From contig JAJZOC010000037.1 of assembly GCA_021852095.1 (NCBI GenBank), positions 1-8,726 of the forward strand: 8,726 bases of DNA, read 5' to 3'. Position 1 is the first letter of the stretch, and every line of letters begins with the position of its first letter. Under the pieces are notes generated by a model. The model ran no database searches, was not told the origin of the DNA, and saw only the letters and a program-made list of their open reading frames with translations. Shown here piece by piece: positions 2,008 to 4,050 of this stretch. The DNA comes from a bacterium (GTDB taxonomy: Bacteria > Patescibacteriota > Microgenomatia > Levybacterales > UBA12049). The translations under genes and the position numbers were made by a program.

Positions 2008-4050
2008 ATGGAATTTAAACTTGTTTCGGATTTTAAGCCAACCGGAGATCAGCCGCAGGCAATTGATTTACTTTCAAAAAATCTTCTTCACAGCAAGAAA
2101 TATCAAACCCTTTTGGGTGTTACCGGAAGCGGTAAGACTTTCACAATGGCAAATGTTATTACCAATGTTCAACGCCCAACCCTTGTTATCTCTCATAATA
2201 AAACCTTGGCCGCCCAGCTTTATCAGGAATTCAGGGATTTTTTCCCAAACAATGCCGTTTCTTACTTTGTTTCATATTATGATTATTATCAGCCCGAAGC
2301 CTATATTCCGCGAACAGACACATATATAGAAAAAGAGGCGGAGATTAACGAAGAAATAGATAAGCTGCGTCTTATGGCAACAACCAATCTTCTAACCAGA
2401 AAAGATGTTATTGTAGTCGCGTCTGTTTCCTGCATTTATAATTTGGGTTCTCCGGTTGAGTACGGCAGATTTATACTAGAATTACAGAAAAATCAGACAA
2501 TAAATTCAAGAACCATCTTGGAAAGATTAACTGATTTGCAATACGAAAGAGATGAATACGGGGCAAAAAGAGGAACTTTTAGGGTAAGAGGAGAATCTAT
2601 AGATTTATTCGAAAGCAACTCGGATTTTGGCTTAAGAATAGAGATCGAGAATAATACAATAAAAAAACTTTATATTTTTAACCCCCTGACAGGAGAAATA
2701 ATTAAGGTTTTGGAAAAAACAGTAATTTATCCGGCGAAACATTATATGACAGACCCGAAATCCTACAAAGATGTTTTTCCTCAAATCCGTAAAGACCTAA
2801 AAGAAAGAACAGATTTATTAAAAAGCAAAGGAAAAATAGTAGAAGCGGCAAGGCTTAAGCAAAGAGTAAATTTTGATCTTGAAATGATACAAAAAATCGG
2901 CTACGTTAACGGTATAGAAAATTATTCAAGGTATTTTGACAACAGAAAACCAGGAGATCCTCCCTATTCTCTGCTCGATTATATGAATTATGCCGCAAAA
3001 GATTGGCTTTTAATTATTGACGAATCCCACATGACAATTCCTCAGATAAGAGGGATGTACAACGGAGACCGTGCCAGAAAAGAAACACTTATTGATTACG
3101 GTTTCAGACTTCCCTCTGCTCTTGACAACAGACCCTTGAGGTTTGATGAATTTATGAGACGGATCCACCAAACAATATTTGTTTCCGCAACCCCAGATGA
3201 ATATGAATTGTCTTTAACACGTGAGTCCCACCTTCCAGGTGGTGTTGCGCCTGCGGCACACCTGGAAGGTGAATCTTTTGATGGAGTTGTCGAACAGCTT
3301 ATACGTCCGACAGGGCTCGTGGATCCCAAGATCTCCATTAGAAAAACAGATGGACAGATCAATGATCTGATTTCGGAAATTCAAAAAAGAGTAGAAAAGA
3401 AAGAACGAGTACTTATTACAACGCTTACAAAAAGAATGGCCGAGGAATTATCAAATTACCTTGAAGAAAGGGGTATAAAAGTGTCATATCTTCATTCCGA
3501 CATTCAAACTCTGGACAGGCAGGATGTGTTAGATAATTTAAGACAAGGAGAATACGATGTTATTGTTGGAATAAATCTTTTAAGAGAAGGCCTTGATCTG
3601 CCGGAAGTGTCTCTGGTTATAATCCTTGATGCCGATAAAGAAGGATTTTTACGAAGCAGAACGTCTTTAATTCAAACAATGGGCCGCGCCGCAAGACACA
3701 GCAACTCCCAAGTTATAATGTATGCCGACACCAAAACAAAATCAATGGATCTAGCGATAAAGGAGGTCGAAAGACGAAGAAAAATCCAGCTTAGCTACAA
3801 CAAAAAACATCATATAACGCCTGTTAGTATTAAGAAGGAAATTCGGGCAAGACTGGTTGAAGAACAAAAGGAGGAGGAAAAAACAGTTAAGTTCCTAACG
3901 GATCTTGAAAATAAAGAAGTTATACTTCCGGATGAAAAAGAACTTTTAATAAAAAGCCTGCGGGCCGAAATGAAGCAGGCGGCTGGGGAACTGGACTTTG
4001 AAACCGCGGCAATTCTTCGAGATAGAATAAAAATATTGAAAGAACGGTAG
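2008..4050 (+). CDS. uvrB: Excinuclease ABC subunit B (UvrB) with an in-frame insertion
   Basis: UvrB is the damage-verifying helicase-like subunit of nucleotide excision repair; it receives DNA from UvrA and recruits UvrC. The 680-residue protein is complete. Walker A GVTGSGKT is at 37-44, the damage-probing beta-hairpin with SYYDYYQPEAYIP at about 89-101, Walker B DESH at 338-341, SATP at 393-396, REGLD-P around 526-532, QTMGRAARH at 556-564, and a C-terminal UVR domain at about 645-680 (FETAAILRDRI) for UvrC binding. Between YEL (399-401) and VVEQLIRPTGL (427 on), where relatives have about 5-9 residues, there are 25, including HLPGGVAPAAHLEG. These are encoded by a GC-rich hairpin element. 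Removing 16 codons would give 664 residues, close to the family norm. The start is supported by the adjacent promoter. No Shine-Dalgarno sequence is present. Confidence 0.97.
   Translation: MEFKLVSDFKPTGDQPQAIDLLSKNLLHSKKYQTLLGVTGSGKTFTMANVITNVQRPTLVISHNKTLAAQLYQEFRDFFPNNAVSYFVSYYDYYQPEAYIPRTDTYIEKEAEINEEIDKLRLMATTNLLTRKDVIVVASVSCIYNLGSPVEYGRFILELQKNQTINSRTILERLTDLQYERDEYGAKRGTFRVRGESIDLFESNSDFGLRIEIENNTIKKLYIFNPLTGEIIKVLEKTVIYPAKHYMTDPKSYKDVFPQIRKDLKERTDLLKSKGKIVEAARLKQRVNFDLEMIQKIGYVNGIENYSRYFDNRKPGDPPYSLLDYMNYAAKDWLLIIDESHMTIPQIRGMYNGDRARKETLIDYGFRLPSALDNRPLRFDEFMRRIHQTIFVSATPDEYELSLTRESHLPGGVAPAAHLEGESFDGVVEQLIRPTGLVDPKISIRKTDGQINDLISEIQKRVEKKERVLITTLTKRMAEELSNYLEERGIKVSYLHSDIQTLDRQDVLDNLRQGEYDVIVGINLLREGLDLPEVSLVIILDADKEGFLRSRTSLIQTMGRAARHSNSQVIMYADTKTKSMDLAIKEVERRRKIQLSYNKKHHITPVSIKKEIRARLVEEQKEEEKTVKFLTDLENKEVILPDEKELLIKSLRAEMKQAAGELDFETAAILRDRIKILKER
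3221..3275. repeat. Palindromic element inserted in frame in uvrB
   Basis: The arms CACCTTCCAGGTG (3229-3241) and CACCTGGAAGGTG (3259-3271) are perfect 13-base reverse complements. The 17-base interior can extend the stem, with one bulged G (3242), through TG/CA and TTGC/GCGG pairing to a four-base loop. The element is flanked by GTGAGTC (3221-3227) and GTGAATC (3269-3275), six of seven bases identical and exactly 48 bases (16 codons) apart, like a target-site duplication. It is much richer in G and C than the surrounding gene. The frame stays open through it. It recalls the palindromic elements found inside Rickettsia genes, but its family is unknown to me. Confidence 0.75.

Follow-up and report, generated by a model that had tools for sequence, protein, structure and literature searches.

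The uvrB gene of the window (the whole 8,726-nt stretch of DNA analysed) raises the question of how a palindrome of 48 bp came to lie in frame within a DNA repair gene, and what becomes of it there. Probably it is a REPIN-like element of two inverted REP hairpins (3228-3275) that a RAYT-type Y1 HUH transposase is likely to have inserted; its predicted translation product is a disordered loop, which UvrB would tolerate.

The palindromic element in uvrB

The source assembly (G000) is fragmented, 657 kb in size and 57% complete. Those of the best 120 of 8000 UvrB proteins that carry a name are mostly Patescibacteria, Microgenomates and Levybacteria; placement within the CPR, judged from the nearest named relatives, is thus well founded and agrees with the probable CPR genome of the initial annotation. 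The uvrB product scores 984 bits against NF003673 (cutoff 743), and its frame stays open through the insert, as had been described. uvrB is usually not strictly essential. The features are as follows.

2008..4050, plus strand: uvrB (excinuclease ABC subunit B), the host gene, 680 aa
3221..3227, plus strand: GTGAGTC, the left direct repeat of the initial annotation; flanking uvrB by comparison with G067
3228..3275, plus strand: REPIN-like element, 48 bp, 16 codons, encoding HLPGGVAPAAHLEGES; the block common to the G067 uvrB, adding 16 codons relative to sister UvrBs
3229..3241, plus strand: left REP arm CACCTTCCAGGTG (itself CACC-TTCCA-GGTG), from the inverted-repeat search
3242..3258, plus strand: inner part, 17 nt, pairing further down to a 4-nt loop (fold and G067 comparison)
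3259..3271, minus strand: right REP arm CACCTGGAAGGTG, an inverted copy of the left arm, from the inverted-repeat search

The two arms are complementary at 13/13 positions across the 17 nt that separate them, and pairing continues to the small loop, just as first reported. They form the only perfect inverted repeat in the window with arms of at least 10 (loop 3 to 40); 40 dinucleotide-shuffled versions of the window yielded arms of 11 at most, versus the 13 observed. The RNA fold of 3216-3280 reaches -34.6 kcal/mol (z -5.7), and 0/200 shuffles were as low. Two inverted REPs and a spacer thus make one hairpin at 3228-3275, the arrangement of a REPIN.

The unit had been drawn at 3221..3275, between 7-base direct repeats. 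The repeats are present (GTGAGTC at 3221-3227 and GTGAATC at 3269-3275, identical at 6/7 positions and 48 apart). The right copy overlaps the right arm, being part of the element, and the G067 copy retains the right GGTGAATC with the left counterpart absent; a target-site duplication, as in MITEs, is therefore unsupported at the uvrB element, and the repeats are not a flanking duplication. The hairpin stands, with better boundaries at 3228-3275 from the block shared with G067.

Occupied and empty UvrB linkers

Following SATPDEYE, the linker is 28 aa in the window UvrB versus 12 in three sisters (P0002, P0005 and P0006), which gives the 16 extra codons, or 48 nt, that had been recognized in the gene itself. 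Among 109 UvrB orthologues aligned with that of the window, 29 of them family loci and 80 taken from the genome collection, all but L011 and L036 have a linker at least 10 residues shorter. The orthologue comparison proposed in the initial annotation finds shorter linkers, both in the sisters and in nearly all of the 109. The long linker of L036 (Shapirobacteria) contains a short inverted repeat, which folds no better than shuffles (z -0.81).

Within the order the linker region was matched in 73/82 genomes; the G046 match came via a topA copy, leaving 72. With split matches added up, the region measures 297-321 nt in 66/72 and runs off a contig end in G039; the remaining five, at 348-411 nt, are G000, G062, G067, G070 and G049. 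In four of these genomes the fold of the insert is more stable than that of its shuffles (z -5.1 in G000, -5.4 in G067, -4.6 in G070 and -2.65 in G049); for the G062 uvrB insert it is not (z -1.05). The UvrB linker thus holds at least two other palindromic inserts in related genomes (G070 and G049), and probably a third in G062. At this site the palindromic inserts of G070 (L268) and G049 (L011/L278), two genomes of a single genus, differ from each other. Linkers of at least 20 residues occur in 28 and of at most 13 in 85 of the best 120 of 8000 UvrB proteins, a biased sample picked by similarity to an insert-bearing query; the count of 5/72 from the order is free of this bias. The other linker inserts among these nearest 120 are of several peptide types, with a DNA basis only for P0001 (the window) and L011/P0117.

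The G067 copy and the UvrB tree

G067 belongs to another genus and has the element at the same linker site and in the same phase, identical over 48 shared bases and with 36 extra bases within the loop. In a codon alignment with the window the element is identical at 48/51 bases, while in the 30 codons to each side 57/90 and 51/84 bases (61-63%) are identical, and in uvrB elsewhere 67.7%. Gene conversion of a uvrB tract was rejected, the G067 flanks being too diverged. Three congeners of G067 (G051, G068 and G069) have linkers of 11-15 residues without the element; no UvrB match was found in a fourth, G066.

In a tree of 126 UvrB proteins, built with linkers removed, the window protein groups with the three short-linker sisters. 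The eight rows with the element in forward orientation need five changes, four of them forced by supported branches, and they cluster more than shuffled labels do (0/500 as low). Gain is not distinguishable from loss in these changes. The linker of P0043 reads HLPGVPQAQHQLEGG, resembling, from its protein sequence alone, the reverse-strand translation of the element; such a reversed copy could have arisen by separate insertion or by inversion in place between the arms.

The element is present in some relatives and absent from others, as REPs and REPINs are, and appears to be mobile, presumably by transposition. The initial annotation had proposed a mobile palindromic element inserted in frame, and the empty sisters, the G067 copy with its diverged flanks and the in-frame copies in other genes described below all bear this out. 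It had also named two observations that would speak against mobility, namely that all close orthologues keep the residues with the palindrome lost, and that the genome has no other copy of the hairpin; the three sisters lack the insert, and the arm is found again on contig C34.

REPs and a RAYT-like gene in the same genome

On C34 of the window genome an ORF encoding a Y1 transposase domain has the 13-mer arm to either side, in identical copies at L006:3020 and 3736.

L006:3059-3706 (C34): RAYT-like ORF, PF01797 match, REPs either side

A REP thus flanks a RAYT-like gene in the same genome, as expected of a REPIN. The ORF matches PF01797 (Y1_Tnp) at 40 bits (cutoff 23), which supports the domain assignment; against the equivalog NF047646 it reaches only a weak 35.4 bits (cutoff 80). 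The REP on either side reads GAGTTCCCACC-TTCCA-GGTGGGAACTC and has an outer GAGTTC stem, which the right side of the uvrB element lacks. No GTAG/CGTC tag, the mark of the super-family of that name, adjoins the C34 REPs in their flanks; GGTAG adjoins some REPs of G062. The nearest relatives of the ORF, L127-L129 (58-62% identity), form one supported clade with it, and hairpins with a CCCAC stem lie on both sides of each of the four genes. RAYT-like matches occur in 37/73 family genomes and fall into several clades with differing flanking hairpins, or with none found. G010 (about 0.9 Mb) has up to ten such matches, representing nine genes. Among 22 RAYT loci in five genomes an arm-like core (at most 2 mismatches) is found on both sides in six, and the exact arm on both sides in two (G000:C34 and G045:C57); the RAYTs of G067 (C8) and G046 (C30) have no more than near-matches to the arm beside them.

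The initial annotation had also suggested a search for further copies, and both the arm elsewhere in the same genome and in-frame copies in related genomes were recovered. Ten arm matches with at most 2 mismatches were found in the 657 kb of this incomplete assembly, and none with reversed control patterns; at least two lone ones are probably chance, and those in C88 and C91 were discounted on this ground. In the 73 family genomes together, the REP pattern was hit 128 times and the control 12 times, with 23 versus 0 in G062. REPs are typically extragenic; the uvrB copy lies inside a gene, and other copies in this genome lie within a prepilin-peptidase-like gene (the pilD pair) and within the C34 ORF. 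In the latter the REP adds few residues net relative to 29 homologues, and the ORF is therefore weak evidence of insertion. The prepilin-peptidase-like gene (L121, G000 contig C4, ORF 2037-1165, minus strand) has, in addition to its REP pair, another palindromic element in frame that is unrelated to that pair (CHPEFISGSR...MLNQVQYDN), and pieces like this second element match several family genomes outside the prepilin-peptidase-like gene.

Copies in other genes and genomes

A DNA pattern blind to genes was scanned over 373 genomes of the class and matched in eight, with controls at 0. Six matches lie in open genes: uvrB (twice), tsaD, an ATP-dependent DNA ligase gene, an aspS-like gene and a radical-SAM gene. 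The match in G201, a long form, is between ORFs, and that in G106, with no second arm, was set aside as probable chance. A phylum scan matched 6/379 genomes (controls 0). New in it were the infB copy of G143, six matches in G434 and, in G504, a lone match, again with no second arm and probably chance. A family scan gave the topA copy in G046. Within the class, 8/9 loci found are genic. Identity to the window over the 43-base core is 43 in tsaD, 42 in topA, 39 in the ligase gene, where both arms have changed together, 38 in infB, 28 in aspS, a rearranged copy with several arms, and 23 in the radical-SAM gene, whose copy comprises the left half only. Shorter REP units occur in pheT of G067 and G068 and in carA of G068; the two pheT genes are reciprocal, each with a REP unit at a site that is empty in the other. 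PDB homologues have gaps over the insert of 14 residues for TsaD, 18 for the ligase, 20 for TopA and 15 for CarA. For aspS the PDB alignment stops at the insert and shows no clean gap.

Two further stretches were seen in these genes. The tsaD of G264 (L338) has a second REP pair, CACCTTCGAGGTG / CACCTCGAAGGTG, in another reading phase, and topA of G046 (L301) has another extra-looking stretch, SETREKQSQNDGIAADSSSPRNDNN, which may be a further palindromic insert.

The 24 G062 REP copies in the stretches examined include two in long named genes (pyrB and murT) and five that overlap ORFs of 70-148 aa; 17 overlap none. G434, of another class, has six matches (L344, L350-L354) to a close variant with a TTCGA loop and similar outer flanks. 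These lie in no ORF of at least 90 aa, several being at contig ends, and are perhaps parts of a larger mobile unit. No exact match to a 21-mer was found in viral_contigs, which were searched for phage carriage. The initial annotation held that the element tolerates or prefers essential genes: in-frame copies in housekeeping genes are indeed found, and targeting of in-frame or essential sites is not supported, the related REPs of G062 lying mostly outside long genes and the G434 matches outside any ORF of at least 90 aa. Open genes can only reveal in-frame copies, and for this reason a preference cannot be read from them.

Reading phase and predicted loop

All eight genic copies of the GGTGTTGC-type core read their arms in the H-L-x-G phase, with variants R-L-R-G for one infB arm and Y-L-E-G for one aspS arm; the radical-SAM copy is included in this tally with one recognisable arm. 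The shorter units in pheT (both) and carA share the phase. The pilD pair, the C34 ORF and the second REP pair in the G264 tsaD are exceptions, and they contradict the idea that every genic REP is read in one frame. The window element is open in 5/6 frames, and openness alone therefore does not explain the phase bias. The figure for this bias, 8e-4, assumes independent copies and was computed after the copies had been seen; the copies are few and not fully independent.

The element is predicted to be translated, its length being divisible by three and its reading frame in uvrB free of stops. As a whole, the AlphaFold2 model of UvrB matches UvrB crystal structures, with a mean pLDDT of 81. pLDDT falls below 50 over the insert (408-423, between a helix and a strand) and also at 613-625, near the C-terminus. 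The predicted insert peptide spans ESHLPGGVAPAAHLEGESFDG and is modelled as a disordered 16-residue loop, which would lie at the surface and be harmless to UvrB.

Origin of the insert

By the explanation we favour, a RAYT-type Y1 HUH transposase would move the element as single-stranded hairpin DNA and insert it without target duplication. uvrB would have gained the element rather than its relatives having lost it, the element would be translated as a 16-residue loop with UvrB function retained, and of genic copies purifying selection would spare only the frame-preserving ones situated in pliable loops. Such a place is the UvrB linker, given that at least two other palindromic inserts (G070 and G049) occupy it. 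A bolder version is possible, though we consider it doubtful. It takes the REPIN-like CPR family to be a coding mobile element specialised for gene interiors: arms and spacer are stop-free in the H-L-x-G phase in both orientations and lengths come in threes, and the element would therefore settle in loops of core proteins (UvrB, TopA, TsaD, ligase, aminoacyl-tRNA synthetases and IF-2) and have spread across families of the class.

In-frame palindromes in genes are the hallmark of Rickettsia elements (PMC3733652), which would suit a palindrome of that type, or a palindromic MITE, whose mover is a DDE transposase that duplicates its target and has no relation to RAYTs. This is improbable, since comparison with G067 shows no target duplication and the exact arm lies on both sides of RAYT genes in G000 and G045. 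The near identity of the element between genera could also reflect transfer of an element-bearing uvrB segment rather than transposition, but the 30 codons on each side are, at 61-63%, no better conserved than the rest of the gene, which makes such a transfer very improbable. The clustering of the eight forward carriers in the tree would suit a functional UvrB loop, inherited vertically and kept by selection for repair. Against this stand the three sisters without the insert, the same DNA in unrelated genes, the higher identity of the element than of its flanks in G067, the reversed element of P0043 and the different inserts at the same UvrB site, and the chance of it is slighter still. Byp elements of yeast mitochondria are mobile and are skipped by the ribosome, and a strong hairpin inside coding sequence might likewise go untranslated. 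A skipped element need not keep frame, however, and once the probable chance match is set aside 6/7 class-scan copies lie in ORFs open through the element and 1/7 between ORFs. That point is weakened, genic copies being recognised by their open ORF, and we nonetheless regard skipping as the least probable reading of all.

Relation to known elements and significance

The REPINs and RAYTs of Pseudomonas, as described by Bertels and Rainey 2011 (PMC3116915), are extragenic and abundant. The element resembles them in its inverted REPs and spacer forming one hairpin and in a Y1 transposase gene of its genome that has REPs on both sides, and differs in its low copy number, its in-frame position inside genes and its CPR host. 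The flanking of a tnpA-REP gene by REP hairpins also recalls the REPtrons of PMC6006769, where the E. coli TnpA-REP is reported to cleave and rejoin REPs. Similar in location are the intragenic GTAG/CGTC REPs of PMC3733652 (2013), which occur as singles and dimers in frame, many of them in replication and repair genes; they include in-frame REPs at two sites in R. conorii uvrB, others in uvrA genes, and recB of two Xanthomonas struck at about the same site. Because in-frame REPs in repair genes, including the Rickettsia uvrB, were published there, the kind of element is already known. Unlike the REPs of that account, those of C34 have no tag, different palindromic inserts share one UvrB linker, and one phase is dominant. 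No CPR member was found among the intragenic REPs of its excerpted text, and no paper on RAYTs or REPINs in CPR bacteria was among the matches listed in the open-licence literature. New are a REPIN-like family in the CPR, the genic position of most of the loci found in its class, the phase bias, and a UvrB linker common to different palindromic inserts.

Likeness to Rickettsia palindromic elements had been proposed at the outset. It holds for a palindrome in frame in a protein gene, as PMC3733652 describes these elements; the closest mechanism is that of REPs and REPINs with a RAYT, the arms flanking the C34 transposase.

The Rickettsia elements are not known to be linked to a RAYT. Selfish DNA of the REP sort is usually intergenic, and in-frame genic copies are therefore notable. 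The UvrB linker offers a natural experiment, with different palindromic inserts at one site and empty sites in congeners, and the puzzle of REPs in repair genes, raised in 2013, becomes testable as targeting versus tolerance. Inserts of this kind, if unrecognised, mislead protein annotation and alignments. CPR genomes are small and gene-dense and have little intergenic space; a selfish repeat that survives as a harmless peptide would therefore explain odd insertions in their core proteins.
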